Shown here: in pieces, positions 14,978-29,978 of the stretch | How the letters are laid out: each line of letters begins with the position of its first letter | How positions within the stretch are numbered: the stretch's first letter is position 1 | DNA from: an uncultured Bacteroidales bacterium | Lineage (GTDB): Bacteria > Bacteroidota > Bacteroidia > Bacteroidales > Bacteroidaceae | Direction of reading: 5' to 3' | Assembly: GCA_902768125.1 (NCBI GenBank) | Contig: CACXKA010000013.1 | Location: 91,720-155,719 of the forward strand | Length of the DNA: 64,000 nucleotides | Program-made: the position numbers and the translations under genes | Notes under the pieces: generated by a model | What the model saw: only the letters and a program-made list of their open reading frames with translations | Told to the model about the DNA's origin: nothing | Databases searched by the model: none

Positions 14978-15035
14978 GTCGCTATTGTTTTCTGCTGCGA
15001 AGTTATCAATTTCTGCACACTTATCCAATTTTTTC

Positions 15036-15435: not shown

Positions 15436-16755
15436 TTATTCTTCCCTTAATGCTTCCACAGGTTTGGTTCTACAGATGTTCCATGCAGGGATGGTGATGC
15501 CGATGCTCACCACGATGAGGATGATGAGATAGACGATGCCTGAAATGATGAGGAAGTGCAGCGGCTTGTTTGCCACCCAAGTCGGGTCGGGTTGGGGGCT
15601 GTAGGAGATGCACAGCTCACCCAATCCTGTCTTCACATAGTTGAGGTAGAGCACGCAGGTGATGAACATGCTCACTGTGGTGAGGATGAAACCTTCTGCT
15701 AGGAACATTCCCATGATGCGTCCTCTTGTCGCTCCGAATGCTCGCATGATGCCCGACTCTTCCGTGCGTCTCTTGGTCTGCATCCAGAAGGTGCCGATGA
15801 CACCCAAGCAGAGGTTGATAAGGAAGAACAGGGCTTTGGCGACAGAAAGATTGAAATCGTATGAGAGCATGGGCGAAGCAAACTGATTCTTAGAGGTCGC
15901 TATGTCTTCGTAGGGGGTGAAGGAGACGATGGCAAGACCCTCGGAAGTGAACTGCTGAAGACGAAAGTTCTGTTCCTCGACAAATCTCCGCACGTCCACA
16001 TCTGGCTTCAGGCGGATGACGAGCTGGCTATGGACATAAACCAGGGGGCAATCAGGGGTGCCCCAATAGACGCGCCAAGTGTCGAAGGAAGTATCTGACA
16101 CGTGAACATCCTCCACCACTCCTTGGATGTAGCTGCTTGACACCCAATCATCAATCTTATCATAAGTCAAGATTACTCTATGATCAATCTCTTTACCGAT
16201 GGCGGCTTTGGCAGACCCATAGAGACGCTCGGCAAGGGAGCGGCTGATGACCACACCTTCATCTGATTTCGAGAGTTCTTCTGCTGTCGGACTTCCCTCT
16301 GCAGCGTGAATGCCGTAGGTTTCAAAGAAGTGCTCGTTCTTCATGTGGCCGGTTTCATACACACGAACGGAATCGTCTCCATAAATATATTGTGCACCCA
16401 CATTATCGACACTGTGAGAGAATATGTTACGAGGAGCCAGTAAGCCTTGGATGGGGTAAAGGATACATACTTGTTCCACCTCGTCTATTGCCTGCAACTT
16501 CCTTTTGAGGACATTGATCTTCTGACGGAATACTCTATCCACATTGTCACTTTCATACCACCGAGTATCAGTGGGGGCGGTATGTGCAACCACCAGTCGT
16601 TCGCAGTCAATGCCCTTTGGCAAACTCCTATAGTACATCCTCACGGCAATAGGGTCGAGTTGTTTCCAAGCCACAAAGCACACGAGGACAAGTTCGGCCA
16701 GTAGCCATACGTTCTGAGCCCGTTGGCTCCAAAGATTATTGATGATCTGTTTCAT
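15436..16755 (-). CDS. ABC exporter permease, type B (FtsX/MacB-like), third pair
   Basis: 439 residues. A MacB-type plan: one N-terminal helix (VWLLAELVLVCFVAW), a large extracytoplasmic domain (about 45-290), and three C-terminal helices with the FtsX-type coupling segment RRTEESGIMRAFGATRGRIMGMFLAEG. It starts MKQIINNLWSQRAQNVW and is clearly paralogous to the permease at 21416-22768; the DNA is nearly identical over the C-terminal coupling region, implying recent duplication. It overlaps the upstream permease by four bases (ATGA). Last gene of the exporter operon. Confidence 0.88.
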   Translation of the reverse strand: MKQIINNLWSQRAQNVWLLAELVLVCFVAWKQLDPIAVRMYYRSLPKGIDCERLVVAHTAPTDTRWYESDNVDRVFRQKINVLKRKLQAIDEVEQVCILYPIQGLLAPRNIFSHSVDNVGAQYIYGDDSVRVYETGHMKNEHFFETYGIHAAEGSPTAEELSKSDEGVVISRSLAERLYGSAKAAIGKEIDHRVILTYDKIDDWVSSSYIQGVVEDVHVSDTSFDTWRVYWGTPDCPLVYVHSQLVIRLKPDVDVRRFVEEQNFRLQQFTSEGLAIVSFTPYEDIATSKNQFASPMLSYDFNLSVAKALFFLINLCLGVIGTFWMQTKRRTEESGIMRAFGATRGRIMGMFLAEGFILTTVSMFITCVLYLNYVKTGLGELCISYSPQPDPTWVANKPLHFLIISGIVYLIILIVVSIGITIPAWNICRTKPVEALREE

Positions 16756-18014
16756 TTCTTCTGATTCATGGATTCAACAATCGGGTTGCGAAGGCTGAGC
16801 CACGCTGGAATGGCTGCTGACATCAAATTGACGATGAGGCATACTGCGAGGGCGATGAGGAAAATGAGGGGTGAGAAAAGCATTTCGCCCTCAATGGTTG
16901 GTTCGGGCATCGTGGTGGCGTGGTTGCTGACGGCAAAGAACACCCACGAACGGAACACGTAGAGCAACAGCCAAGTGATGACCAAACCGACGATGCCGCC
17001 CCAAAGGGTGAGCACCAGATTCTCCGTGATGACTTGATGGAGCAGTTCTCTCCGTTTGGCTCCGAAAGCCTTGCGCACCCCCATCTCAGGCAGTCGGCGT
17101 TTCATCCGTGCAGCCACCAATCCGCTCAGGTTGAGGGCAGGCACAAGCAGCAGCACGAACACTTGTGGAAAGAGGGCAAGGAGGATGTCCTTCCATGAAG
17201 AAAGTTCCCTGCCCCCCGATAATTGCAGTTGGGCATGGGGCCATATTCTGTTTTCGAAAGAATAATCCAGATTCTTGCTGCTGACACTCCGCTTGTGGGC
17301 AATTTCCTCCAGTTCCTTCTCCAAATCAGCCACGCTGCATCCTTCTTTCAGAACAATGGTCATCATATTGGCACCATCGGATTGAGGTATGAAAAGTTGG
17401 CCGAAACTCTGCTCCGCAATGGACGAGGTCGGTTCTATTACCCCCACCACACGGAGGTCAGTGGTGGCAGTAAGCACCTTGCCGACAGGATTAACTTCCT
17501 TGCCAAACAGTTGTTCAGAAATGTCTCGGCTGATGATGCAGATGGGCGAAAGACTGTCCGCTGGTGCGAAAGGCCGTCCATAAACGAAGTGGAAGTGATA
17601 GACCTTGAAGAAGTTGGCATCCACCAATCGCTCCACCACAGGAACAGGCTTGCTGTCCTTGTACCATGCGTATGCTTTGTCTCTGAAAAAATCAGATATT
17701 TTAATGCTGGCGCTGATCACCTCCGCACTCTTCATCGGATAGAACCATTCCTTCATCTCGTTTAAGCTGTAAAAATTTGTCGGTTCCTTGAGCTCGTATC
17801 CGTTTTTGGGAATCTCCAACATCGGCAGTACATACACCGTCCGACTCCTGTTCACCTCTGGTTCGATGTCCGCCAACTTGGCGTAATACACCACAGCAAT
17901 CACCATCGTGAAGGCAATCGCCAAGGCTGTTCCTGCGATGTAGATGCCAGAGAACAGCCGCTCCTCCTTCATCATGTGGAGAGCTTGACGTACATATAAT
18001 AATAGTTTATTCAT
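16752..18014 (-). CDS. ABC exporter permease, type A, third pair
   Basis: 420 residues, four membrane helices in the MacB arrangement. The start MNKLLLYVRQALHMMKEERLFS is typical of the type A permeases here. The C-terminal half has VAARMKRRLPEMGVRKAFGAKRREL, the coupling helix that touches the ATPase. Very close to the permease at 22770-24134 from about residue 10 onward. It lies 33 bases after the previous permease gene. Confidence 0.88.
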   Translation of the reverse strand: MNKLLLYVRQALHMMKEERLFSGIYIAGTALAIAFTMVIAVVYYAKLADIEPEVNRSRTVYVLPMLEIPKNGYELKEPTNFYSLNEMKEWFYPMKSAEVISASIKISDFFRDKAYAWYKDSKPVPVVERLVDANFFKVYHFHFVYGRPFAPADSLSPICIISRDISEQLFGKEVNPVGKVLTATTDLRVVGVIEPTSSIAEQSFGQLFIPQSDGANMMTIVLKEGCSVADLEKELEEIAHKRSVSSKNLDYSFENRIWPHAQLQLSGGRELSSWKDILLALFPQVFVLLLVPALNLSGLVAARMKRRLPEMGVRKAFGAKRRELLHQVITENLVLTLWGGIVGLVITWLLLYVFRSWVFFAVSNHATTMPEPTIEGEMLFSPLIFLIALAVCLIVNLMSAAIPAWLSLRNPIVESMNQKK

Positions 18015-18047: not shown

Positions 18048-19379
18048 TTATTCGTCCCGTAGCGCTGTGACAATCTTCTTTCGGCAGATGTTCCAGGCGG
18101 GGAGGGCAATGCCAAGGCTCACGATGATGAGGAGGAGCAGGAATATGATGAGGGAGATGATGAGGAAGTGAGGCCAGAACTGGTTGATCCAGTCATTCTC
18201 CATGCCTGACGTGCCCCTGATGTTGCCATCGGAAAGGATGTCCCAGGAGGCAGCGAACTGCAACCAGATGAAGTCGCCCAGAAGGGAGGCAAGGAGGGTA
18301 AGGATGGCTCCTTCAGCAAGGAAGGTCCAGAAGATGCGAAGCTTCGAGGCTCCAAAAGCACGCATGATGCCGATGTCCTCCTTCCGTTTGCGGATTTGCA
18401 GCCAGTAGGTGCCAATCGTACCGAGGACGACGATGATGGCGAAGAGTGTGAGGGGCACGGTGACAAGTTGGTTGCTGAGGGTGTCCCCATTCATCTCCTT
18501 TTGTCGTTCAAAGTGCTGGTTGTAGGTTTCTAATGTGGACAACACGTAGGAGCCGGCACGGAAATCATGCGTGAGCGTAGGCTGATGTTTCTTCACAAAC
18601 GCCTCGGCATCCACATCAGGCTTGAGGCGCAGGAGCAATTTAGTTCTGGCACCTGCCCAGTTGGTGGGCAAGAATGCCATGTAAGGGTATCGCTCGTAGG
18701 GTGATCCTTTCACATCCTCCACCACGCCGGCAATGGTGTGATAGCCTGCCACCTGATAGTAATTTCCGTCATGTGAGTACATATTGTTCACCATGGCCAA
18801 CCGTTTACCCACCACTTGGTCGGTGCCGAAGAGCTGCTCTGCCAGGCTGCGGGTGATGATGATGGCATCTTGTGGTAGTTCTCTCGACAGCACTTCCGCA
18901 GCAGGACTCCCTTCGATGCTACGCAGACCCTGCGTCTCGAAAAACTGTTCATTGGGGTAGTAGGACTTGCACGAAGCACTGGTAATCTTCAGCGTGTCGT
19001 CGGCAGGAGCAAAGGGTCTCCAATCGTACAAGCGGAGGTCTTCACCTATATATTGAAAAGTTAAACACACCGACTGCACCTCAGGCAGGTTCTGCAATTG
19101 AGTCTTCAGCACTTGATAACGCTCCATGTCTTCTTCGTATGGGATTCCTCCCCTCTCCTGCAGTTCCTGTTCCAGTTCCCCTCGGAGTTCTCCGAACTGC
19201 CCCACACACAGGTGATCCTTCTCAAAATCTCCTGTAGGGTTGCAGAAGAATTTGCCATAGTTGCTCACCACCAGATAGTCCACCATGAACCAGCTCAGCA
19301 CCGTGATGATGGCAATCTCGGCAAAAATCCAACCGTTCTGTTTGCGGTGCGCCCATAAGTTTTTAAGTATAAGTCTCAT
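18048..19379 (-). CDS. ABC exporter permease, type B, second pair
   Basis: 443 residues, MacB-like. N-terminal helix (WIFAEIAIITVLSWFMVDYL), large periplasmic domain, and three C-terminal helices with KRKEDIGIMRAFGASKLRIFWTFLAEG. It is more diverged from the other two type B permeases than they are from each other. It shares one base with the stop codon of the gene upstream, so translation is probably coupled. Confidence 0.87.
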   Translation of the reverse strand: MRLILKNLWAHRKQNGWIFAEIAIITVLSWFMVDYLVVSNYGKFFCNPTGDFEKDHLCVGQFGELRGELEQELQERGGIPYEEDMERYQVLKTQLQNLPEVQSVCLTFQYIGEDLRLYDWRPFAPADDTLKITSASCKSYYPNEQFFETQGLRSIEGSPAAEVLSRELPQDAIIITRSLAEQLFGTDQVVGKRLAMVNNMYSHDGNYYQVAGYHTIAGVVEDVKGSPYERYPYMAFLPTNWAGARTKLLLRLKPDVDAEAFVKKHQPTLTHDFRAGSYVLSTLETYNQHFERQKEMNGDTLSNQLVTVPLTLFAIIVVLGTIGTYWLQIRKRKEDIGIMRAFGASKLRIFWTFLAEGAILTLLASLLGDFIWLQFAASWDILSDGNIRGTSGMENDWINQFWPHFLIISLIIFLLLLIIVSLGIALPAWNICRKKIVTALRDE

Positions 19380-20716
19380 TACTTCTTCTGATTTAGCGAT
19401 TCAACAATGGGTTTCTTGAGGGCTGTCCATGCTGGGATGAGGGCTGCCATGAGGTTGAGCACCGCACAGCAGACGAAGGCGATGAGGAAGAGCGTGGGGG
19501 TGAAGAACATATCCAACTGCAGCGACACACTATTCACAGGGTCATACTCTCGCCCGAATATCGACAGGAACAAGGTGCTGTTGCGCACGGCGGCGATGAA
19601 CAGCCACGAGAGCAGATAGCCCACCACGCCGCCTAAGAGGGTAAGCACGAGGTTCTCCTGTATCACTTCGTTCAGTAGCACCCGTTTCTTGGCGCCAAAC
19701 GCCTTGCGGATGCCCATCTCTGCCACGCGTGCCTCCATTTGGTTTGATACCATACCGCTCAGGTTGATGGCTGGCAAGAGGAGGAGCAGCAGCATGAACA
19801 GGGCAGGTATTGATAGGTTTGCCAGCAGATCGCTCGTCGAGGCGTCGTTCACCTCTTCTCCGAAGAAGTTCAGTGTCTTCCGCCAGTGCGGCCTCACCTG
19901 GATGTACCAATTCCAATCCTCTCCTGTCGTGCTCTTCAGCATGGAGAGGTACTTGGCTTGGTAAGACTCCAGTTCGTCCATCAGCATCTCTCGGGTATAT
20001 CCTTTCTTCAACAGCACACGCACCTCCAAGCCTCCAGCCCAAGTAACATTATCATCTTTCCAATGTGCTCGTGAGTCGCTGACGGTGTAGGGCAGGTAGA
20101 TGTCGGCAGAGGTTTCCTTCAGCAGCGGGCTCACCTCCTTCACGATGCCCACCACCCGATAGGGGAGGTAGTTGAGCTGGATGGTTTGTCCTACCACTCC
20201 TTCTGTCTTCTCAAAAAGTTTCTTTGCCAATGCATCGGTGATGACGATGCATCTGTCAGCATGCTTCAGGTTCTCCTCGTTGTAGGGCTTTCCTTCCAGA
20301 AACTTGAACTCGTAGAGGCGGAAGAAGTTGGGGTCGGTGAACTTGATACCGACTGGCACCTCCTGCTTGCCTATCTCCTTGCAGGCGGTGAAGCGGTAGA
20401 TATATTCGTTGCTCATCGCTGCACTCACCACTTCGGCACATTCCAACTTGTTGAACATCTCCTCCACCGCTTGAGGCGAGTATCCTGAATAGCCTACCCA
20501 TCCTCCATCAGAGCGGGTGAAGTTGCTGCCCACATAGATGGTTCTGTCCCTGTTCACCTCGGGGTAGATATTGCCCATGCGGATGTGCAGCACCAGCGCC
20601 ACAATCATCGCCGAGGCTATGGCGACCGCCGTACCAGCGATGTAGATGGCGGAGAACTGCTTGTCCTCACGAATCAGCGCCAAAGCTTGGCGTACATATA
20701 ATAATAGTTTACTCAT
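19379..20716 (-). CDS. ABC exporter permease, type A, second pair
   Basis: 445 residues, start MSKLLLYVRQALALIREDKQFSAIYIAGTAVAIA. Periplasmic domain followed by three helices and the coupling segment MEARVAEMGIRKAFGAKKRVLLNEVIQENL. It overlaps the ATPase gene by four bases (ATGA) directly downstream of it, so this pair is the most tightly linked to the ATPase. Confidence 0.88.
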   Translation of the reverse strand: MSKLLLYVRQALALIREDKQFSAIYIAGTAVAIASAMIVALVLHIRMGNIYPEVNRDRTIYVGSNFTRSDGGWVGYSGYSPQAVEEMFNKLECAEVVSAAMSNEYIYRFTACKEIGKQEVPVGIKFTDPNFFRLYEFKFLEGKPYNEENLKHADRCIVITDALAKKLFEKTEGVVGQTIQLNYLPYRVVGIVKEVSPLLKETSADIYLPYTVSDSRAHWKDDNVTWAGGLEVRVLLKKGYTREMLMDELESYQAKYLSMLKSTTGEDWNWYIQVRPHWRKTLNFFGEEVNDASTSDLLANLSIPALFMLLLLLLPAINLSGMVSNQMEARVAEMGIRKAFGAKKRVLLNEVIQENLVLTLLGGVVGYLLSWLFIAAVRNSTLFLSIFGREYDPVNSVSLQLDMFFTPTLFLIAFVCCAVLNLMAALIPAWTALKKPIVESLNQKK

Positions 20717-21390
20717 TGTATTTGTCTTCCGTCCAAGAACTTGATGATGCGTTTTGTCTGCTGAGCCTGCTGCTCGTTGTGGGTCACCATCACGATAGTG
20801 CGACCGTCCTCCTCGTTCAGTTGCTTGAGGAGTCCGAGGATGTCGGCACCCATCTTCGAGTCGAGGTTACCCGTCGGTTCATCGGCGAGGATGATTTCGG
20901 GGTTGCCGATGATGGCACGGGCAATGGCGACACGCTGGCACTGACCGCCTGAGAGCTGCACGGGTGTGTGCTTCATGCGATGGGAGAGTCCAACCCTTTC
21001 GATGACCTCTTTGGCTCTGCGGATGCGTTCGCTATAGCCGATGCCACGATAGAGGAGGGGCAGTTGCACGTTGTCGAGCACGTTGAGCGAACTGATGAGG
21101 TGGAAGGACTGGAACACGAAGCCGAGGGTTCTGTTGCGGAAGTCAGCCAACTGATTGTCGGAGAGGTTGTGGCTGATGGTGGTGCCACAGAGCTCCACGG
21201 TTCCGCTGGTAGGCTCGTCGAGAAGTCCCATGATGTTGAGCAGCGTGGATTTTCCACAACCTGAAGGTCCCATCACGCTGAGGAACTCTCCCTTCCCTAC
21301 TTCGATGTTTACGTTCTCCAATGCCTGAGTCTCAATTTCCTCAGTGCGATACACCTTGTTGATGTCTGTCAATTTGATGATTGTTTCCAT
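20713..21390 (-). CDS. ABC exporter ATPase (LolD/MacB-type)
   Basis: 225 residues, full ABC ATPase: Walker A GPSGCGKST, Q-loop FVFQSFHLIS, signature LSGGQCQRVAIARA, Walker B IILADEPTGNLDS, and the switch His in VMVTHNEQQA. It belongs to the LolD/MacB/FtsE subfamily that drives mechanotransmission permeases. It is the only ATPase among six permeases, so it presumably serves three permease pairs. It is 25 bases after the first pair and overlaps the second. Confidence 0.93.
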   Translation of the reverse strand: METIIKLTDINKVYRTEEIETQALENVNIEVGKGEFLSVMGPSGCGKSTLLNIMGLLDEPTSGTVELCGTTISHNLSDNQLADFRNRTLGFVFQSFHLISSLNVLDNVQLPLLYRGIGYSERIRRAKEVIERVGLSHRMKHTPVQLSGGQCQRVAIARAIIGNPEIILADEPTGNLDSKMGADILGLLKQLNEEDGRTIVMVTHNEQQAQQTKRIIKFLDGRQIQ

Positions 21391-21415: not shown

Positions 21416-22768
21416 TTATTCTTCTCTTAAAGCGTCCACTACTTTTGTCCTGCAGATATTCCATGCAGGAATGGCGATGCCGATGGACACGACGATCAAT
21501 ATAATAAGATATACGAGTCCTGCGATCACGCAGAAGTGGAGGGGTTTGTCTGCCACCCATGTGGGGTCGGGCTCATATTGTGGGGCTTGGAGAGGGATGC
21601 AAAGTTCACCTAATCCAGTCTTCACATAGTTGAGATAAAGGACGCAGGTGATGAGCATGCTGAGGGTTGTGAGCACGAAGCCTTCTGCGAGGAACATCCC
21701 CATGATGCGTCGCTTGGTGGCTCCAAAGGCTCGCATGATGCCCGACTCTTCCGTTCTTCGCTTGGTCTGCATCCAGAAGGTGCCAATGACACCCAAGCAG
21801 AGGTTGATGAGGAAGAAGATGGCGGTGGCGACGGAAAGGTTGAAGTCGTAGTCGCTTTGTGCATTGAAGTCCGCACTATGAACGCTATCTATGTTCTTGG
21901 CTGCATCGACGTATGGAAAGAACTCGCAAATGACGTAGTGTTCCGATGCCAGTTCTCCCGTACGGTAGGTCTGCTCCTCCACAAAACGCTGCATATTAAC
22001 CTCTGGCTTCAGTCGGATGACGAGCCGAGCCATCTGTTGGTTATTAGAGAACCAGCCATTGGGGGAGAACGCCATCCAAGTGCTGTATTCGTCAGTTCGT
22101 GCGCCAACATCCTCAACCACACCCTGAATGGTATAAATGATAGAGTTTTTATTTCCCTCCACATCTACATATGTCCAACCCGAGTCTAAATTCTTGCCTA
22201 TTGCCGCCTCTGCCGACCCATAAATCCGTTCAGCCAGCGAACGGGTGAGGATGAGACTCTGCCCGCCCCCTGTATTCATGGAGAGGTCATGTTGTGAGGG
22301 ACTTCCAGGCAAGGGCTGAATGCCAAATGTCTCGAAGAAATCCTGTCCGATGTCGAAATAGCACCAAGGCACAATAATCGTGTCGTTGGGAAGCGGAATG
22401 TGCGTGTAGTACCTATTCAAGCGAGGATAACCCTCTATGCCATCAAGGAAACTCACGTAGGCCACCTCATCCAGTTCCAAGAGGTGCTGCTTCAGCTGCT
22501 TCATCTCCTGAGTGAACCGTTCTTCCATCTGATCATAGGTTTCTCTCTCTGTACGATCACCGGTATTCTGTTCCATCGTTTTGTAAAGTCGCGCATCAGC
22601 CACCACCAGTCGGTCGATGTCGAAGCCTGCGGGCTGATTCTGGTAGAAGAGCCTCACGACAATGGGGTCAATCTGCGTCCAAGCCACAAAGCATACGACC
22701 ACCAGTTCTGCAAAGAGCCACACGTTCTGAGCACGTTGGCTCCAAAGGTTCTTGAGTATCTGTTTCAT
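21416..22768 (-). CDS. ABC exporter permease, type B, first pair
   Basis: 450 residues, start MKQILKNLWSQRAQNVWLFAELVVVCFVAW. Large periplasmic domain, then three helices with the coupling segment RRTEESGIMRAFGATKRRIMGMFLAEG. Near-duplicate of the last permease of the operon (15436-16755). It begins one base after the stop codon of the upstream permease. Confidence 0.88.
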   Translation of the reverse strand: MKQILKNLWSQRAQNVWLFAELVVVCFVAWTQIDPIVVRLFYQNQPAGFDIDRLVVADARLYKTMEQNTGDRTERETYDQMEERFTQEMKQLKQHLLELDEVAYVSFLDGIEGYPRLNRYYTHIPLPNDTIIVPWCYFDIGQDFFETFGIQPLPGSPSQHDLSMNTGGGQSLILTRSLAERIYGSAEAAIGKNLDSGWTYVDVEGNKNSIIYTIQGVVEDVGARTDEYSTWMAFSPNGWFSNNQQMARLVIRLKPEVNMQRFVEEQTYRTGELASEHYVICEFFPYVDAAKNIDSVHSADFNAQSDYDFNLSVATAIFFLINLCLGVIGTFWMQTKRRTEESGIMRAFGATKRRIMGMFLAEGFVLTTLSMLITCVLYLNYVKTGLGELCIPLQAPQYEPDPTWVADKPLHFCVIAGLVYLIILIVVSIGIAIPAWNICRTKVVDALREE

Positions 22769-22769
22769 A

Positions 22770-24134
22770 TCACTTCTTCAGATTCATGGATTCAACAATC
22801 GGGTTACGCAAACTCAGCCAAGCAGGGATGAGCGTCGCCATCAGGTTCACCACCGCACAAACCAAGAAGGCGATGAGGAAGATAAGAGGCGAGAAGAGCA
22901 TTTCGCCCTGCACCAATGGTTCAACCGTCTGATTGGGTATATTGCCCAAAGCGAAGAATGCCCACGAACGGAAAACATAGAGCAGGAGCCAAGTGATGAC
23001 GAGTCCAACCAGACCACCACACAAGGTGAGCACAAGGTTTTCGCTGATGACCTGATGCATCAGTTCACACTTCTTGGCTCCAAACGCCTTCCTTACACCC
23101 ATCTCGGGTAAACGCCGTTTCATGCGAGCCGCCACCAGTCCGCTCAGGTTGAGAGCAGGCACAAGCAAGAGGACAAACACTTTGGGTAAGAGCGCAAGGA
23201 AGATGTCCTTCCAAGAGGAGAGATCCAGTCCTCTCGACATCATGAGCTGGGCATGAGAGCAGACCTGAAGGTCGTATTCCCATTTCTTGTCGCTCATGTT
23301 CAGTCGATGCACTTTTTCCTTCAAAAAGTCCCGCACATCATCGATGGTGTAACCCTTCTTCAGCACCACCACCATCCTTCTGGAATCACCATATTCGCAA
23401 GGGAAAAATAGCTGCCCATAGCTTTCAGAGGCGATGGACGAGGTGGGCTCAATCACGCCCACAATCCGAAGGCAGGCGCTGTCATAATAGTTCAGTATTT
23501 TGCCCACTGGATTCACACCCTTGCCGAAAAGTTTCTCTGCCACATCTAAACTGATTATAGCGATGCTGACATCTGGAGCGGCATTCTCTCCAGTCAGCAA
23601 ACCCTCAGCATCAGTAAAGGGACGGCCATACACGAACTTGTGATGATAAATCTTGAAGAAATTGGCATCCACACTCCTCATCGCCACAGGCAGAATCTTC
23701 TTGCCGTCCTCCATCCGCAGATATAACTTCCGAGCACCCATGTCCTCCATACGGGTCAGACAACCCGCTATCTCAGCACACGGCATCTTGTAGAACCACT
23801 CACGAATCAGGGTGTCCGGAAAGGCATAATGCTTATAATTTCCACCTTCTTCAACTGTATGCTCAACGCCTTCCCGCATGTAGGCATTCATTGTCACATA
23901 CACCGTCCTGCTTCTGTTCACTTCTGGCTCGATGTCCGCCAGTTTCGCGTAATACACCACAGCAATCACCATCGTGAAGGCAATCGCCAACGCTGTGCCC
24001 GCAATATAAATGGCGGAGAACAGCCGCTCCTCCTTCATCATGTGGAGGGCTTGACGGAAATAAAGAGACCCTCCCCTCACCCTCCCTGCGAGGGAGGGAG
24101 TAGAATGTTTCAACTCAAATATATTTTTCATCAT
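22770..24134 (-). CDS. ABC exporter permease, type A, first pair, N-terminus rewritten by a repeat
   Basis: 454 residues, MacB-like with coupling segment VAARMKRRLPEMGVRKAFGAKKCEL. From YFRQALHMMKEERLFSAIYI onward it matches the other type A permeases. The first 27 or so residues (MMKNIFELKHSTPSLAGRVR, then GGSLYF) differ completely and are encoded by a palindromic repeat (24067-24101) plus its flank. First gene after the sigma-54 promoter at 24231-24246; the start codon lies between two arms of a perfect inverted repeat. An internal later start is possible. Confidence 0.82.
   Translation of the reverse strand: MMKNIFELKHSTPSLAGRVRGGSLYFRQALHMMKEERLFSAIYIAGTALAIAFTMVIAVVYYAKLADIEPEVNRSRTVYVTMNAYMREGVEHTVEEGGNYKHYAFPDTLIREWFYKMPCAEIAGCLTRMEDMGARKLYLRMEDGKKILPVAMRSVDANFFKIYHHKFVYGRPFTDAEGLLTGENAAPDVSIAIISLDVAEKLFGKGVNPVGKILNYYDSACLRIVGVIEPTSSIASESYGQLFFPCEYGDSRRMVVVLKKGYTIDDVRDFLKEKVHRLNMSDKKWEYDLQVCSHAQLMMSRGLDLSSWKDIFLALLPKVFVLLLVPALNLSGLVAARMKRRLPEMGVRKAFGAKKCELMHQVISENLVLTLCGGLVGLVITWLLLYVFRSWAFFALGNIPNQTVEPLVQGEMLFSPLIFLIAFLVCAVVNLMATLIPAWLSLRNPIVESMNLKK
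24067..24101. repeat. 35-bp inverted repeat, arm 1 (inside the permease frame)
   Basis: The 35 bases are the exact reverse complement of 24181-24215. Each arm itself contains a palindrome (CTCCCTCGCAGGGAG) with a GGTGAGGGGAGGGTC tail. Spacer 79 bases. Confidence 0.95.
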
Positions 24135-24180
24135 AAATACAGATATAGGAGCATGTCACTCCGTTGTTTTATAAGTAACC

Positions 24181-24215
24181 ACTCCCTCCCTCGCAGGGAG
24201 GGTGAGGGGAGGGTC
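24181..24215. repeat. 35-bp inverted repeat, arm 2 (5' leader of the permease mRNA)
   Basis: Exact reverse complement of arm 1. It lies directly downstream of the -12 element, so the transcript should begin with or just before this arm. Confidence 0.95.
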
Positions 24216-24230
24216 TTCTCCTCAATACAA

Positions 24231-24246
24231 TACAAAGAACGTGCCA
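24231..24246 (-). promoter_or_regulatory. Sigma-54 promoter of the permease operon
   Basis: On the minus strand TGGCACGTTCTTTGTA matches the RpoN consensus TGGCACG-N4-TTGCW at all but one base. It lies 97 bases from the permease start. Confidence 0.8.
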
Positions 24247-24288
24247 GAAGGTTAAGTCACTGATAATCAGTAGTAGCTAAAAAAACAA

Positions 24289-24327
24289 GTGTCCATTTCT
24301 GGACACTCTACTGTTCGGAAATGGACA
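24289..24327. promoter_or_regulatory. Tandem enhancer palindromes upstream of the permease operon
   Basis: Perfect palindrome GTGTCCATTTCTGGACAC (24289-24306) and an imperfect second one, TGTTCGGAAATGGACA (24312-24327), with centres 22 bp apart. The proximal one lies 43 bp from the start of the -24 element. Confidence 0.85.
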
Positions 24328-24351
24328 TTCTTGTTATGGGATCGAAGGAAT

Positions 24352-25587
24352 TTATGGGAACACGATGGTGAAACGTGTTAAGCCATCCTCCGGGCTGGTC
24401 AGCAGGGTGAAGGTGCAGCCGTGCTTGGTGAGGATGTCGCGAATCAGAAGCAATCCAAGCCCTTGTCCTTGGGGTTTGGTGGAATAGAAAGGCGTGAAGA
24501 GATGAGGCGCCACTTCGGGCGAGATGCCACGTCCATTGTCGGTTATAATGAGGGTCTTGGGTTGGGTCTCTATGCGGATTTCACCCTCACCACTGATGCT
24601 TTCGATGGCGTTCTTCACAATGTTTACAAGCACCTGTTGGAACAATGTGGTGTCCAGATGGACAGGTGTGGCTTCATCAGTGAGGTTGAGGGTCAGATGG
24701 ATGTGGTGGGTTTGGCAGAGCCCTTCGAGGAAGGAGTGGCAAGTCTCCACCTCTTCGCTCAGGTCGCAAAGGGTGAGTTGAGGCTCTGGCACTTTCACCA
24801 CATTGGCAAAGCGAGTGACGAACTCCGCCATCTTCTGGGTACGTTCGCGACTGGCATCAAGCGCTTCTTGTGCCGTGTTGCCTTGAAGTTCCGTTTGGAT
24901 AAGGTCTAACGTACTCACAATGCCTGCCACATTATTATTGACTTCATGCGCAATCATACGAATCACCTTTTCGTAGGCTGCTTTTTCTGCCTTCATCACC
25001 TCGGAAGTGAGCGACTCAATCAGGAAGAAGGGGTGCTGATAGCCGCGGTCGAGGAAGGAAAGATGAGAGAGGTGGTAGATTTGGGAGTTGCTCAGTCGGA
25101 GCGTTGTTTCTTCCCCTAAGGGTAAGGATTTCATGGCTTCCGTGAGTGCGGGCGTGAGCATCTGCTTAGCCGCAGGATTCATCGTCTTGATATTGCCTGA
25201 AAGGTCGCACAAGACAACGCCCATCGGAGAAGCTTCGATGAGCAGGTTGAGGAAGGTATTTTGTTCGTCGAGCTTTAAGTGTTCATCACGTAGTCGTGTG
25301 ATGAGCGCATTGAAGGTCTTGACGATTTCGTCTGTCTCCCGCTGTCCAGAGGGGGAAAGCGTGGTGCTCATGTCTTGGTCGCGCAGCAGTTCCATGCCGC
25401 TGGTCAGCGTATCAATAGGACGGATGACCTTGCGGTAGAAGAAAATCAGATAGCAGATCACCACTACCAACACTCCCTCCGCCACGTAGAAAATGACGGG
25501 GCGGATGCTGAATGTCAACCACATCAAAGCGGCTAACACACCCACAATGATGAGGGTAAGCAGGAAGAAGTAATACGTTATCTTCAT
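24352..25587 (-). CDS. Membrane sensor histidine kinase (NtrB-like)
   Basis: 411 residues: two N-terminal helices (about 5-28 and 30-51) with almost no periplasmic loop, so it probably senses a signal in or across the membrane. A HAMP linker follows (about 52-105), then a PAS domain (LLIEASPMGVVLCDLSGNIK), a phosphoacceptor helix with MIAHEVNNNVAG (His about 214) and an HATPase domain (NIVKNAIESI, DNGRGISPEV, GQGLGLLLIRDI). It is encoded 39 bases after the response regulator, its evident partner, and next to the permease promoter. Confidence 0.92.
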   Translation of the reverse strand: MKITYYFFLLTLIIVGVLAALMWLTFSIRPVIFYVAEGVLVVVICYLIFFYRKVIRPIDTLTSGMELLRDQDMSTTLSPSGQRETDEIVKTFNALITRLRDEHLKLDEQNTFLNLLIEASPMGVVLCDLSGNIKTMNPAAKQMLTPALTEAMKSLPLGEETTLRLSNSQIYHLSHLSFLDRGYQHPFFLIESLTSEVMKAEKAAYEKVIRMIAHEVNNNVAGIVSTLDLIQTELQGNTAQEALDASRERTQKMAEFVTRFANVVKVPEPQLTLCDLSEEVETCHSFLEGLCQTHHIHLTLNLTDEATPVHLDTTLFQQVLVNIVKNAIESISGEGEIRIETQPKTLIITDNGRGISPEVAPHLFTPFYSTKPQGQGLGLLLIRDILTKHGCTFTLLTSPEDGLTRFTIVFP

Positions 25588-25626
25588 TTCTTCAATTATT
25601 CAATCGCATCTTTCAATTTTCAACTT

Positions 25627-27039
25627 TCAAAGTCCATGTTTTTCTATCTTACGATAGAGTGCTCCACGACTGATGCCCAGTTCCTTGGCCACCAGCGAGA
25701 GATTACCGTTATGTTTCGCAATGGCAGCAGCGATGGAGGCACGTTCTATTTCTTCAAGCGTAGCCCTCTGCCCCCCAAAGGGAATGGGCTGTCGCGATGT
25801 TTCGTGTTCTGAAGGTTGATAGGCAGCCTTGAAATCATTGGCTGCTAACACCTTTTCTTCCCCTTGGGGAGCTGGGGAACTCATCAGCATTGTCCTTTCC
25901 ACCAAGTTCTTCAACTCTCTGATATTCCCAAGGAAGGGTAAAGTCTGGAGATACTGAATAGCTTCGTTGGATGCCGAAGCGGGTGGAAATCCGTTGGCAG
26001 CACAGGTTTGACGGATAAAGTGCTCAACCAACAGGGGAATATCCTCTTTCCGTTCACGCAAGGGTGCTAGTTGCAGGTGGATGATGTTGATGCGATAGAA
26101 GAGGTCTTCGCGGAAGGTCTTGTCGTTGACCATCTGACGGAGGTCGGCATTGGTGGCACATACCACACGCACATCAGCCCGTCGTGTCACGCTGTCGCCC
26201 AACACCTCGTAGGTCTGGTCTTGCAGCACACGCAACAGTTTCACCTGACTCGCCAGTTCCAACTCACCAATCTCATCGAGGAAAATAGTACCTCCCTTTG
26301 CCAGTTCGAAACGCCCCGTTCGGTCGTTTTTGGCATCGGTGAAGCTTCCCTTCTTATGTCCAAACATCTCGCTTTCAAACAGGGAAGTCGAAATGCCACC
26401 GAGGTTCACCTTCACAAAGGGTTTCCCATTCCTTCGGCTCTGCTCGTGGATGAACTGAGCAACGAGTTCCTTACCCGTACCCGACTCACCCGTGATGAGC
26501 ACCGGTGCATTGGTTTGTGCCACATGTTGGGCTGTGGCGAGGACGGAAAGGAAAGAAGAGGAGCGGCCAATGAGCCCCCCAGCCCCCGAAGGGGGAGGGC
26601 ATCCGCCGTGTTGGTCATTACTCCCATTAGGTACATCGCGATAGCCCTCCCCCTTCGGGGGCTGGGGGGCACTCAATGCGATTGCCGTTTCTATTCTATC
26701 CATCAGCACCCCATTGTCCCAGGGCTTCGTGATGAAATCGAAAGCTCCGTTGCGCATTCCTTGCACTGCCAAGTCGATGGTGCCCCATGCAGTCATGAGG
26801 ATGACGGGTACATCGGGTCGGAACACCTTTACTTGTTTCAGCAGGGTGAGTCCCTCTTCGCCATCGGTGGCAAGGGTATAGTTCATGTCCATCAGCACCA
26901 GTTCCAAGTTGGGATGGTTGCGTACCACCTCCATTGCTTCTGCTGGATTTTCAGCACGCATCACTTCGTGGTTGTTGCGTTCCAGCAGCAGGGTCAGTGC
27001 CACACGGATGGCTCTATCGTCGTCAACAATCAGAATCAT
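25627..27039 (-). CDS. Sigma-54-dependent response regulator (NtrC family) with translated repeat insert
   Basis: 470 residues. Receiver domain (about 1-120, phosphoacceptor Asp51 in LVLMDMNY); a foreign linker (about 124-156, SAPQPPKGEGYRDVPNG through PPPSGAGG) made by a 97-bp inverted repeat; an AAA+ domain (Walker A GESGTGKE, Walker B GTIFLDEIGEL); and a C-terminal Fis-type helix-turn-helix (LSLVAKELGISRGALYRKI). The sigma-54 contact loop reads GSFTDA rather than GAFTGA, a form usual for Bacteroidetes. Two more repeat-like stretches (SSPAPQGEEK and RQPIPFGGQR) sit in the linker before the helix-turn-helix. It probably activates the two sigma-54 promoters at 24231 and 29859. Confidence 0.93.
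   Translation of the reverse strand: MILIVDDDRAIRVALTLLLERNNHEVMRAENPAEAMEVVRNHPNLELVLMDMNYTLATDGEEGLTLLKQVKVFRPDVPVILMTAWGTIDLAVQGMRNGAFDFITKPWDNGVLMDRIETAIALSAPQPPKGEGYRDVPNGSNDQHGGCPPPSGAGGLIGRSSSFLSVLATAQHVAQTNAPVLITGESGTGKELVAQFIHEQSRRNGKPFVKVNLGGISTSLFESEMFGHKKGSFTDAKNDRTGRFELAKGGTIFLDEIGELELASQVKLLRVLQDQTYEVLGDSVTRRADVRVVCATNADLRQMVNDKTFREDLFYRINIIHLQLAPLRERKEDIPLLVEHFIRQTCAANGFPPASASNEAIQYLQTLPFLGNIRELKNLVERTMLMSSPAPQGEEKVLAANDFKAAYQPSEHETSRQPIPFGGQRATLEEIERASIAAAIAKHNGNLSLVAKELGISRGALYRKIEKHGL
26574..26600. repeat. 27-bp inverted repeat, arm 1, in the regulator gene
   Basis: Exact reverse complement of 26644-26670, 43-bp spacer. Core palindrome CCCCCGAAGGGGG. Translated in frame between the receiver and AAA+ domains. 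Confidence 0.95.
26644..26670. repeat. 27-bp inverted repeat, arm 2, in the regulator gene
   Basis: Pairs perfectly with arm 1. Its GGGGGCTGGGGGGC tail resembles the repeat in uvrA at 58662-58685. Confidence 0.95.
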
Positions 27040-27055
27040 ATTTGTATATTTTTTG

Positions 27056-27063
27056 CAAAGGTA
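27056..27063 (-). promoter_or_regulatory. Bacteroidetes -7 element for the regulator-kinase genes
   Basis: TACCTTTG on the minus strand, 17 bases before the response regulator ATG. The -33 element is weak. It suggests the two-component genes have their own vegetative promoter. Confidence 0.5.
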
Positions 27064-27080
27064 TGAAAAAGTTGGGAGTT

Positions 27081-28352
27081 TTATTCATTCATCCTTATCT
27101 TTTCTTTTCCTTTGAACTTTTGCATGTCACTAATCACCACGCTGTCACCTTCTTCCAATCCGTTGATCACTTCCACATAGTCGTAGTTGCATTCGCCCAA
27201 ACGGACGGTACGAGGCACGAGGGTGTTGGCGTCTTTAAGGATAAACAATGTGTAGTCGCCTGCACCTGTATAGTAAGAGCCGTTGCGGATGCGCAGCACT
27301 TCTTCCTTGATGCTGGTGATGACAAAGACTTCCACTTTCAAACCTGAGCGTAGTTTGGGATGGCTGGGGTTGTCCATTGTGACGGTGAAGGTGATGACAC
27401 CATTTTGGCTGAGAGGTGTGACGGTGCTGATGATGCCAAAGAGACGTTCCTTGCCTACCTTGACGAGCACCCTGCCACCTGCCACCACACGGTCGGAATA
27501 GGTGTCGGAGATTTCACAATCCACCTTGAAGTGGGTGAGGTCGCTGATGACAGCCACTTTGCTGCCTTGTCCGACGATACTGCCGATCTCGGAACAAATG
27601 TAAGTGAGGGTTGCCTTGCGAGGCGAACGAATATTGGCACCATCGAGGGTGCGACGGGTTTCGGAGAGTCCCTTGTCGGCAATGCCGTCCTGAAGCTGCT
27701 TCATACGGAGGTCTGCTTGGCGCACACGCACTTCGTTTTGGTATTGCTGTTTGAGTTGACGAAGTTGCATCTGTGCCGTGCGCAGGGTGATTTCTGCTTG
27801 ACGCACACGGTCTTTGGTGCCTGAACCGAGGCTATCCAGATACTGCTCATTGCGCAGTTGTGCCTCCAGCTGCCCCAGTTTCATCTCCTCTACTTCTATC
27901 TGCATGCGTCGGTCGCTGAGTTGGGTTGCAGTGTTGGTGGTGAGCTGTACGAGTTGCTGCTGACGAATCTCCCGTTCGTCCAGGGCTTTCGAGTAGTTGT
28001 CCTGAGCCGATTGGAGGTCAAGCCGCAGGAGAGGCGTACCCACATCCACTGTATCACCACTGTGGGCATAGACCTCAAGTATCTGTGCACTGATGGGCGA
28101 AATGATGACTTCCTCGAAGGCTGGCACCACCTTGCCTGTGGCTGTGATGCTCACATCAATCGTGCCCCGATCCACTTCCGATACAATGAGGCTTTTCTTA
28201 TCCACCGAGGTCATCATCAGTATGCCCAGCCAAGTGGCTATTCCCAGGATGACTGCGACAATGAGGACATATTTCCCGATTCTCACCATTCTTCTTTTGC
28301 GTTGCACGCTGACAGGAATGGCTCTGTCCATCGTTTGATTATCTGTTTTCAT
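27081..28352 (-). CDS. Membrane fusion protein (HlyD/MacA family)
   Basis: 423 residues: one N-terminal membrane helix (YVLIVAVILGIATWLGILM), a lipoyl-like half (VDVSITATGKVVP), a long coiled-coil hairpin (about 115-235), the second lipoyl half (GANIRSPRKATLTYICSEIGSIV) and beta-barrel and membrane-proximal domains. Members bridge an inner-membrane exporter to a TolC channel. It overlaps the TolC-like gene by four bases (ATGA), so the pair is one operon. Partner permeases are likely the six encoded downstream. Confidence 0.9.
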   Translation of the reverse strand: MKTDNQTMDRAIPVSVQRKRRMVRIGKYVLIVAVILGIATWLGILMMTSVDKKSLIVSEVDRGTIDVSITATGKVVPAFEEVIISPISAQILEVYAHSGDTVDVGTPLLRLDLQSAQDNYSKALDEREIRQQQLVQLTTNTATQLSDRRMQIEVEEMKLGQLEAQLRNEQYLDSLGSGTKDRVRQAEITLRTAQMQLRQLKQQYQNEVRVRQADLRMKQLQDGIADKGLSETRRTLDGANIRSPRKATLTYICSEIGSIVGQGSKVAVISDLTHFKVDCEISDTYSDRVVAGGRVLVKVGKERLFGIISTVTPLSQNGVITFTVTMDNPSHPKLRSGLKVEVFVITSIKEEVLRIRNGSYYTGAGDYTLFILKDANTLVPRTVRLGECNYDYVEVINGLEEGDSVVISDMQKFKGKEKIRMNE

Positions 28353-29827
28353 TTGATCAGTTTTTCAAAATCCACGTCAATGTTTCGGTTGTTCTCGAAG
28401 TCCCATAAGGTGATGGAACGTATCTGATAATAATAATACCAGTAATTGAAGAGTTGCGAGATTCGGTTCTGCCGCGCCACATCCTTGGCGGTTTGGGCAT
28501 CGGAGAGTTCGAGGGTGGAGATGGTGCCAATCTTGAAGGTCTCCACGTTGGTGTGGTAACGGCTTCGGGCAATGGTGTCCGCCTCTTCAGCGATGCGCAG
28601 CTGCTGGCGCTGGTGGTTGAACTGTTCGGTCAGTACGAAGAGGTCCTGACGAAATTCCTGTGACTGCTGACGGATCTGGTTGCGCACGATTTCGCGGTTA
28701 CTCTCTGCCACCTTCACCTGTCCACGCCGTTTACCCCAATCGAGCAAGGGCAACGACACACCCACCTGCACCACTTCCTTACTGAGCAGGTCGCGGTAGG
28801 CGTCGTTCATCCGGGAGGCAGTGCCCGTGTAACCCACTTGTGCATAGAGGGTCACACTCCGTAGGTTGCCCTTAGCGAATGCCACCGACTCGTCTGCCTG
28901 CAGTTGACGACGTCGCATGGTGGTGGCGAAGGCGTTATTCTCCAAAGCGTGGTTGAGCACATTGTCATATATCAGTGTCACTTCGGGGATGTTGTCGGGC
29001 ACGATGGGCACAATGTCCTCCTCCACATCGAGAAAGGATTTCAGTTCAAACATCCTTGCCTTCCGATGGCTCTCTACATTGGTGAGTGCCGACTGTGCGT
29101 TCAGCATTTGCAGGCGCATTTGCAGGACATCATTCTGGCTGATGCTGCCCATCTCGCGCTTTGCTTTCGCCACCTCGTAGAGCTTCTCGGCATTCTGTAG
29201 GTTCTGCTCGGCAATATTCACGTTCTCATTTGCCAACAGGAGGTCGAAGAAGAGGTTGATGGCGCGCATTGCCACCTGTTCTGTTGCCGTGAGGAACGAA
29301 GCCTTCGCCTCCCGATAGCGCAGGGGTTCAATGCGTTTGTCCCACTTCACCGTGTTCACCCCAAACAGGGGTTGGCTTAGTGTCAAGGCAATGGGCATGC
29401 TCATGAACTGATTCTTGCTGCCTGAAGTAACGCCGCTCATCTGGCGCAGCCAATCCAGCGAAGACTCCATCGACAGCGTACCGCCCGTAAGTCCAATCTT
29501 CTGGCTTATATGCAGCGAACCATCCAGTTCCATGTAGTCGTTTCTCACATACGAGTGGGTGCCATCCTCGCGCTGATAAGTGCTGTACCGCTTGTTGTAG
29601 GTCGGCACACTCGCCGACAGCGACACCTCGGGCAACAGATCTGCCTTGTAACTGCGCCATGCCCAATAGGCAGATTTCAGTTCGCCCAGCGCCACCGTTG
29701 CCTCCACACTCCGCTGTCGCGCCATCAGGATGCAGTCGTCGAGGTTCAGTCGGAGAGTGTCCCCTTCGGCATGTCCCATTTGTGTCAGGAGGCACACCAT
29801 CATTAAAATCACTGTTCTTTTCTTCAT
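28349..29827 (-). CDS. TolC-like outer-membrane efflux protein
   Basis: 492 residues from MKKRTVILMMVCLLTQMGHA, a clean signal peptide; the longer frame from 29863 adds a non-signal leader that begins within the promoter. Two outer-membrane-efflux (OEP) repeats with long coiled-coil helices (QNLQNAEKLYEVAKAKREMGS; RQDLFVLTEQFNHQRQQL) and a conserved LPLLDWGKRRGQVKVA segment. First gene of the fusion-protein operon, driven by a sigma-54 promoter 32-47 bases upstream. Confidence 0.9.
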   Translation of the reverse strand: MKKRTVILMMVCLLTQMGHAEGDTLRLNLDDCILMARQRSVEATVALGELKSAYWAWRSYKADLLPEVSLSASVPTYNKRYSTYQREDGTHSYVRNDYMELDGSLHISQKIGLTGGTLSMESSLDWLRQMSGVTSGSKNQFMSMPIALTLSQPLFGVNTVKWDKRIEPLRYREAKASFLTATEQVAMRAINLFFDLLLANENVNIAEQNLQNAEKLYEVAKAKREMGSISQNDVLQMRLQMLNAQSALTNVESHRKARMFELKSFLDVEEDIVPIVPDNIPEVTLIYDNVLNHALENNAFATTMRRRQLQADESVAFAKGNLRSVTLYAQVGYTGTASRMNDAYRDLLSKEVVQVGVSLPLLDWGKRRGQVKVAESNREIVRNQIRQQSQEFRQDLFVLTEQFNHQRQQLRIAEEADTIARSRYHTNVETFKIGTISTLELSDAQTAKDVARQNRISQLFNYWYYYYQIRSITLWDFENNRNIDVDFEKLIK

Positions 29828-29858
29828 ATTTTTTATGATTAATGATGCTCTCCTTTGG

Positions 29859-29874
29859 AACAAAACACATGCCT
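29859..29874 (-). promoter_or_regulatory. Sigma-54 promoter of the TolC-fusion protein operon
   Basis: On the minus strand AGGCATGTGTTTTGTT keeps the GGCA and TTG cores with the canonical spacing (consensus TGGCACG-N4-TTGCW). Confidence 0.72.
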
Positions 29875-29916
29875 GAATTCTAACTTGTTGGTTCCCAATG
29901 GCTCAAATCAAAAAGA

Positions 29917-29954
29917 GTGTCCATTTCTGGACACTCACTGTCCAAAAATGGACA
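29917..29954. promoter_or_regulatory. Tandem enhancer palindromes upstream of the TolC operon
   Basis: GTGTCCATTTCTGGACAC (29917-29934, identical to the 18-mer at 24289) and TGTCCAAAAATGGACA (29939-29954), both perfect palindromes with centres 21 bp apart. The proximal one starts 43 bp from the -24 element, as at the other operon. Confidence 0.87.
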
Positions 29955-29978
29955 CTATCAAGTTGTCAGGAACTTTGC

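Follow-up and report, generated by a model that had tools for sequence, protein, structure and literature searches.

Two minus-strand operons in a stretch of DNA from an uncultured Bacteroidales bacterium (contig CACXKA010000013.1 of assembly GCA_902768125.1, positions 91,720 to 155,719; this whole stretch of 64,000 nucleotides is referred to as the window) appear to carry the same switch, in which two matching activator sites are combined with a site of the DNA-bending type and with a sigma-54 promoter. The first operon contains genes for a TolC-type outer-membrane channel, a membrane fusion protein (MFP), an NtrC-type response regulator, and a sensor histidine kinase; the second (24134-15436) contains those for two permeases, an ABC ATPase, and four more permeases. 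Strand and spacing suggest that the genes within each operon are co-transcribed. From the arrangement, conservation, and co-occurrence of these elements, we estimate a probability of nearly nine in ten (0.87) that they form a sigma-54-dependent regulon under two-component control, of which the draft genome has two full sites.

Promoters and paired palindromes of the two operons

The first-pass annotation had described minus-strand sigma-54-type promoters before both operons, an identical 18-mer palindrome 43 bp from each -24 element, and a second palindrome whose centre lies 21-22 bp upstream of the first. All of these were present. The promoter of the TolC operon is AGGCATGTGTTTTGTT (29859-29874, minus strand, read from 29874 to 29859), and that of the permease operon is TGGCACGTTCTTTGTA (24231-24246, minus strand, read from 24246 to 24231). 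Both show the GG-N10-GC/T arrangement of a -24/-12 element, which is conserved in the orthologues. The proximal palindrome is an exact copy of the 18-mer GTGTCCATTTCTGGACAC on the minus strand of both operons (29917-29934 and 24289-24306), and its 16-mer core lies 43 nt from the -24 box at both. The distal palindrome of the TolC operon (29938-29955, minus strand) has a perfect TGTCCAN4TGGACA core at 29939-29954, and that of the permease operon (24312-24327, minus strand) has one degenerate half and two mismatches to this core.

When up to three mismatches were allowed, the 18-mer matched the window 3 times, where chance would give 0.09 matches. The relaxed form of the TGTCCAN4TGGACA palindrome is by itself no commoner there than expected (31 found with three mismatches, 38 expected). 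Since a loose -24/-12 pattern is also common by itself (336 matches with two mismatches in the window), it is the combination of sites that counts. The first-pass annotation had proposed scanning the genome for the 18-mer together with RpoN promoters, and when the draft genome (2.78 Mb in 41 contigs, 89.7% complete) was scanned in this way, just these two full sites came up: the perfect palindrome GTGTCCAN4TGGACAC occurred nowhere but at the two operon heads, and a palindrome followed by 40-48 nt and GGYAN6TTG gave exactly two matches (reversed control, 0).

Conservation of the sites and their co-occurrence with the regulator

Among 45 genomes of the genus, including that of the window, regulator orthologues (69-99% identity) were found in 15, its own genome counted. 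We scanned the loci of 13 of these 15 genomes, window included, for paired palindromes, and 12 of the 13 had them, the two centres being separated by 21-22 bp and the -24 box following after 42-45 nt. The expectation that orthologous loci keep the palindromes thus held, and the 43-nt spacing proved common rather than invariant (17 of the 22 promoters in those 12 genomes). In the 13th genome (G025), the site heads a relocated ABC-TolC operon outside the first stretch; two genomes read later (G064 and G066) also have the paired palindromes and the spacing. Four loci (L054, L059, L061, and L062) have the site at additional or relocated permease operons.

These orthologues also bear on another explanation of the palindromes, namely that palindrome and T run form a transcription terminator instead of an enhancer. 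A terminator scan scored both sites as a stem with a T-rich tail, and the stretch had 11 terminator-like sites against 6.5 expected. However, the orthologue palindromes are paired at a fixed distance from the -24 box, and the T run is missing at several of them (the TolC promoters of L055, L058, and L059). We therefore rejected this explanation as highly improbable.

A strict enhancer-spacer-promoter pattern had 30 matches in 16 of the 45 genomes and was found in 14 of the 15 genomes with the regulator versus 2 of the 30 without it (Fisher's exact test, 1e-8). The sole regulator-bearing genome missed (G035) has degenerate sites. As for the two matches without a regulator, a contig end cuts inside the MFP gene in G023, where the regulator is not visible, and the match in G027 lies inside a 498-codon open frame and has no distal palindrome. 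Beyond the genus, the enhancer pattern matched in just 3 of 392 other genomes of the order (L106-L108); enhancers this near the TGTCC form are therefore local.

In two genomes (G016 and G017), the same paired site and promoter also stand before a gene for a thioredoxin-like (redoxin) protein (L183, about 6416) and before an outer-membrane beta-barrel gene (L182, about 5076). The regulon is therefore probably larger in other species.

Regulator, kinase, and RpoN

The regulator (25627-27039, minus strand) has a receiver domain, an AAA+ sigma-54 activator domain, and a Fis-type helix-turn-helix (HTH), all above the Pfam cut-offs. It scored below the NCBIfam equivalog cut-offs for AtoC (365.6 versus 714 bits) and NtrC (358.3 versus 558.6 bits), and among the best 25 of its 95 NCBIfam matches no equivalog cut-off was reached. 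The first-pass annotation had placed this gene between the two operons; the position is right, but the gene is actually the third of the first operon. For RpoN, the genome has one Sigma54_DBD match, with the C-terminal domain above the cut-off, in a 502-codon open frame. The helix SRGALYRKIEKH is identical in the window regulator and five orthologues (L225-L229), and Bacteroides-group relatives with TGTCCG-type sites (L269, from Phocaeicola vulgatus ATCC 8482, and L274) read SRAALYRRLEKY in that helix.

A different regulator might bind the palindromes, with the neighbouring one acting elsewhere, as the genome encodes a second full activator (C3:170469). However, this apparent second gene, recognised by its match pattern (ca. 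42% identity over residues 155-388) and not by orthology, also occurs in genomes without the sites (such as G010, G022, and G034), whereas the window regulator tracks them. We consider this exchange of roles very unlikely.

Upstream of the regulator ATG lies TACCTTTG (27056-27063, minus strand), a match to TAnnTTTG, which we take to be the Bacteroidales housekeeping -7 box. TAnnTTTG starts 24-34 nt before the regulator ATG in 13 of 14 loci, the near copy L052 included; in the 14th, the distance is 86 nt. Because this element is conserved before the start codon, the regulator could be expressed at a basal level independently of the sigma-54 promoter.

The kinase (24352-25587, minus strand) has Pfam HAMP, PAS, and HATPase domains. 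Its N-terminus, by hydropathy only, has two adjacent hydrophobic segments separated by a loop of a few residues. A kinase without a periplasmic domain beside FtsX-family permeases may point to sensing of the Bce type.

Regulator length differs among the orthologues, as if palindromic elements insert in frame. An inverted repeat (26574-26670) lies in the linker-coding region of the regulator gene, and another (24066-24216) lies around the start of permease 1; their arms are 38 nt with 87% complementarity and 36 nt with 100% complementarity, respectively.

An IHF-like element at a fixed distance from the promoter

Between enhancer and promoter, both operons have an element that the first-pass annotation had not noted. 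It resembles WATCARNNNNTTR, which we take to be the consensus of integration host factor (IHF). On the minus strand, the TolC operon has AACCAACAAGTTA (29881-29893, one mismatch) and the permease operon has TATCAGTGACTTA (24253-24265, perfect), each starting 20 nt before the GG of the -24 box. The element was present in all 21 promoters compared (15 perfect and 6 with one mismatch; near copy L052 omitted), and it always started 20 nt before the -24 GG, though the spacer varies by 3 nt. In 19 promoters (L057, a near copy of L056, also left out), the mean number of mismatches to the consensus was 0.26 at offset 20 versus 4.1-7.1 at 25 other offsets. The conserved letters reach further 5' as A.TGA..ATCAA....TTA.

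The element was also found by searches that did not presuppose it. When the enhancer pattern was searched ignoring the element, 29 of the 30 genus matches had it at offset 20 (20 perfect and 9 with one mismatch), and the lone match without it was the coding match in G027. The three enhancer matches in other genera have the element with 0, 1, and 2 mismatches. Conversely, a search of the genus for element plus promoter, with no enhancer required, gave 28 matches (reversed control, 1), of which 23 bear the enhancer and 5 do not. In the window's own genome, allowing up to two mismatches, this search gave 4 matches with the window promoters ranked 1 and 2 (reversed control, 0). We infer that the WATCARNNNNTTR-type element is a bend site for IHF or an HU-type protein.

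The HU/IHF family has eight matches in the genome. An N-terminal domain of this family is present in a 442-aa frame, which starts outside the window and lies for the most part within it (1 to ca. 1279, plus strand). By eye, this frame has a hydrophobic segment and a LysM-like end, and it is directly downstream of another HU/IHF-family gene.

Two spacer classes in relatives

Titled genomes were scanned for relatives of the regulator. At least 582 stretches encode some relative, and the best 80 (56-99% identical) were kept. TolC, regulator, and kinase genes cluster in many of these, and 32 have sites and promoter. Search of 75 of the 80 loci gave 29 promoters (reversed control, 0). In another search of these relatives, three rows were set aside as wrong readings (L225 and L245, reverse strand; L229, shifted pair). 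The search of the 75 loci included 18 promoters with a spacer of 42-45 nt; each of the 18 carries the IHF-like element 20 or 21 nt before GG with no more than two mismatches. A 31-nt spacer was found at 13 loci titled Bacteroides or Mediterranea (11 in the search of the 75 loci, and L294 and L303 in the other), and in none of the 13 does the element occur at either of these offsets, the two places scored (at least four mismatches). The loci in this comparison are related to one another and may stand for fewer independent changes.

The element across Bacteroidales

In 384 genomes of the order, we looked for copies of the element that are separated by 2-12 nt from a downstream -24/-12 box. The 111 matches, which include some near-duplicate genomes and one window promoter, comprised 18 with a gap of 7 nt, 22 with a gap of 8 nt, and 71 over the other nine gaps. 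Gaps of 7 and 8 nt correspond to offsets 20 and 21, and this excess has a binomial probability of 6e-6 under even gaps. An off-register control pattern (N5TTTG instead of N4TTTG or N5TTG) had 52 matches in the same genomes, of which 5 were at gaps of 7-8 nt. Reversed patterns gave ca. 10 matches in each of two order-level searches; since this is fewer than the off-register count and understates chance, we relied on the gap distribution. Additionally, 32 of 39 matches at 7-8 nt (one duplicate dropped) were intergenic versus 2 of 21 at other gaps (Fisher's exact test, 5e-8), the 21 being those of the 71 whose surrounding DNA was read and not a random draw. These results indicate that offset 20-21 of the element is enriched across Bacteroidales.

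In other families, two of the matches at 7-8 nt (L192 and L193) stand before a TolC gene with MFP and MacB/FtsX-type genes behind it, and their palindromes differ in sequence (TGTAAA and TTTACA). An automatic score for tandem palindromes reached significance at 8 of the 39 order-level promoters at the right offset and at 0 of the 21 elsewhere, which lends slight support to tandem palindromes in general. Next to loci that had not been chosen by the element, only three intergenic promoters were found: L106 has the element with one mismatch, and L045 and L048 lack it (at least three mismatches at 20 and 21). The element is thus common and not universal. L045 and L048 lie beside paralogous regulators of the same genus (41-42% identity) and have their own tandem palindromes with GTGCG and CGCAC halves.

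The rigid distance might also arise if the element were contacted by sigma-54 itself or by the alpha-CTD of RNA polymerase. Length changes fall on the enhancer side and leave the offset to GG at 20, the order-level offset is 20-21, and the consensus extends 5', all as such a contact would allow. On the other hand, the conserved letters match the IHF consensus, and relatives without the element at this place have the enhancer 12 nt closer, as expected for a bend. We regard a polymerase contact as unlikely, although it is the alternative that deserves the most weight, and favour a bend site. More broadly, the chances seem about even that many sigma-54 promoters of Bacteroidales have an IHF-like third element at a fixed place 20-21 nt before the -24 GG, which serves various activators and palindromes and co-varies with enhancer distance (ca. 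43 nt with it and 31 nt without it), so that lineages would switch between activating the same exporter system with a bend and without one.

Genes of the two operons

All genes below are on the minus strand. The TolC-type channel gene (28349-29827) matches Pfam OEP (2e-40) and has an ATG start at 29827; a longer alternative with a TTG start at 29863 would begin inside the sigma-54-type promoter. It is followed by the HlyD/MacA-type periplasmic adaptor gene (27081-28352; Pfam HlyD_3, NCBIfam RND_mfp above the cut-off), and then by the regulator and kinase genes. The second operon begins with permease 1 (22770-24134; Pfam MacB_PCD and FtsX) and permease 2 (21416-22768; Pfam FtsX only), followed by the ABC ATPase (20713-21390), whose best NCBIfam matches (DarD, LolD, and MacB) are each below the cut-off. 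MacB/FtsX-type permeases 3 (19379-20716), 4 (18048-19379), 5 (16752-18014), and 6 (15436-16755), assigned by Pfam domain matches, complete it. By profile search, all six permeases have the FtsX domain and five have the MacB core. The window holds the genes expected of a MacAB-TolC-type system (TolC, MFP, ABC ATPase, and MacB/FtsX permeases), and the two operons appear to encode jointly one MacB/TolC-type tripartite exporter with predicted export activity. Beyond the permeases, a long frame (13475-15028, minus strand) is methyltransferase-like by eye and has repeated NLKPQTS stretches that resemble in-frame repeat insertions.

Proposed mechanism and points that weigh against it

We propose that, upon its presumed signal, the kinase phosphorylates the NtrC-type regulator, which would be kept at a basal level by its own housekeeping-type promoter. 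Two regulator dimers would then bind next to each other, one on each palindrome of a pair, with centres at ca. -77 and ca. -98 from the assumed start site, and an IHF/HU-type protein would introduce a bend at the IHF-like element, whose offset of 20 nt from the -24 box is fixed. The bend would let the AAA+ ring reach RpoN-RNA polymerase, and both promoters would open together. Joint activation of the two operons by this regulator had been inferred in the first-pass annotation, and the genome scan, the orthologous loci, and the co-occurrence of sites and regulator support that reading. The predicted output is an outer-membrane channel, an adaptor, an ATPase, and six FtsX-type permeases, that is, one tripartite exporter of a presumed substrate spread over two operons. 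Extra regulator and kinase made from the first operon may provide positive feedback.

Several observations weigh against this mechanism. At both window promoters, the -12 element has GT instead of GC (GG-N10-GT), and one -24 box begins AGG. The L1 loop of the regulator is GSFTDA rather than GAFTGA; its close orthologues also have GSFTDA, and more distant relatives have GAFTDA. F and T, the most critical letters of this loop according to PMC3162934, are kept, and GAFTDA is counted as compatible with activity in PMC4641369. No site was found by the patterns used in 48 of the best 80 loci, Bacteroides fragilis included, many of these loci being short or without the operon start. Among the 18 long-spacer promoters, 7 have a weak distal partner at a distance of 19-20 bp. 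Of the eight HU/IHF-family proteins, three were scanned and none of these reached the NCBIfam IHF cut-offs. Finally, the six one-mismatch promoters are singly indistinct from shuffled sequences, 3.5-19% of which do as well; since these elements do not stand out one by one, the fixed offset is what counts.

Comparison with known systems

Activation of sigma-54 promoters from upstream sites with the help of IHF is textbook knowledge, as the consulted parts of PMC7175178 and PMC7057263 indicate. For Bacteroidia, the literature found already contains a prediction from promoter matrices that ABC permeases of the FtsX/MacB type (COG0577) are under sigma-54 control (PMC12316311, consulted in part), which concerns the same gene class and sigma factor as the window operons; the parts consulted give no enhancer sites or regulator for the permeases, and the term IHF is absent from its text. 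In Flavobacterium psychrophilum of the same phylum, a -24/-12 motif was derived from mapped start sites and one promoter was mutagenised (PMC9723704, consulted in part), with another class of targets and no IHF term in the text. The Desulfovibrio sigma-54 regulome, in another phylum, used comparative assignment of activators to sites and accepted the GAFTDA loop (PMC4641369, as far as consulted); the terms IHF and tandem are absent from it.

In the open-licence PMC literature searched, we recognised no description for Bacteroidales of this regulator and its enhancer sequence, of an IHF-like element at a rigid offset, or of a link between that element and spacer length, and these appear to be new here. 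They give a testable regulator-site-promoter assignment for an exporter system whose genes lie next to relatives of the regulator in records with Prevotella, Bacteroides, or Phocaeicola in the title. The link between IHF-like element and enhancer distance may also serve as a natural experiment on DNA bending in sigma-54 activation outside Pseudomonadota.

In the Bce-type modules of Bacillota, a kinase with almost no extracytoplasmic loop is encoded beside FtsX-family permeases. The window kinase is likewise predicted to be nearly loopless and is encoded beside FtsX-family permeases; unlike in those modules, the window regulator is of the sigma-54 type and the predicted exporter is tripartite. 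At the pspA promoter of E. coli, which depends on PspF, IHF, and sigma-54, adjacent activator sites and IHF are combined with a -24/-12 promoter. The window promoters similarly pair adjacent putative activator sites with an IHF-like site and a -24/-12 element. In contrast to pspA, the predicted activator is a two-component regulator, its targets are the genes of an exporter, and the offset of the IHF-like element is rigid at many promoters.

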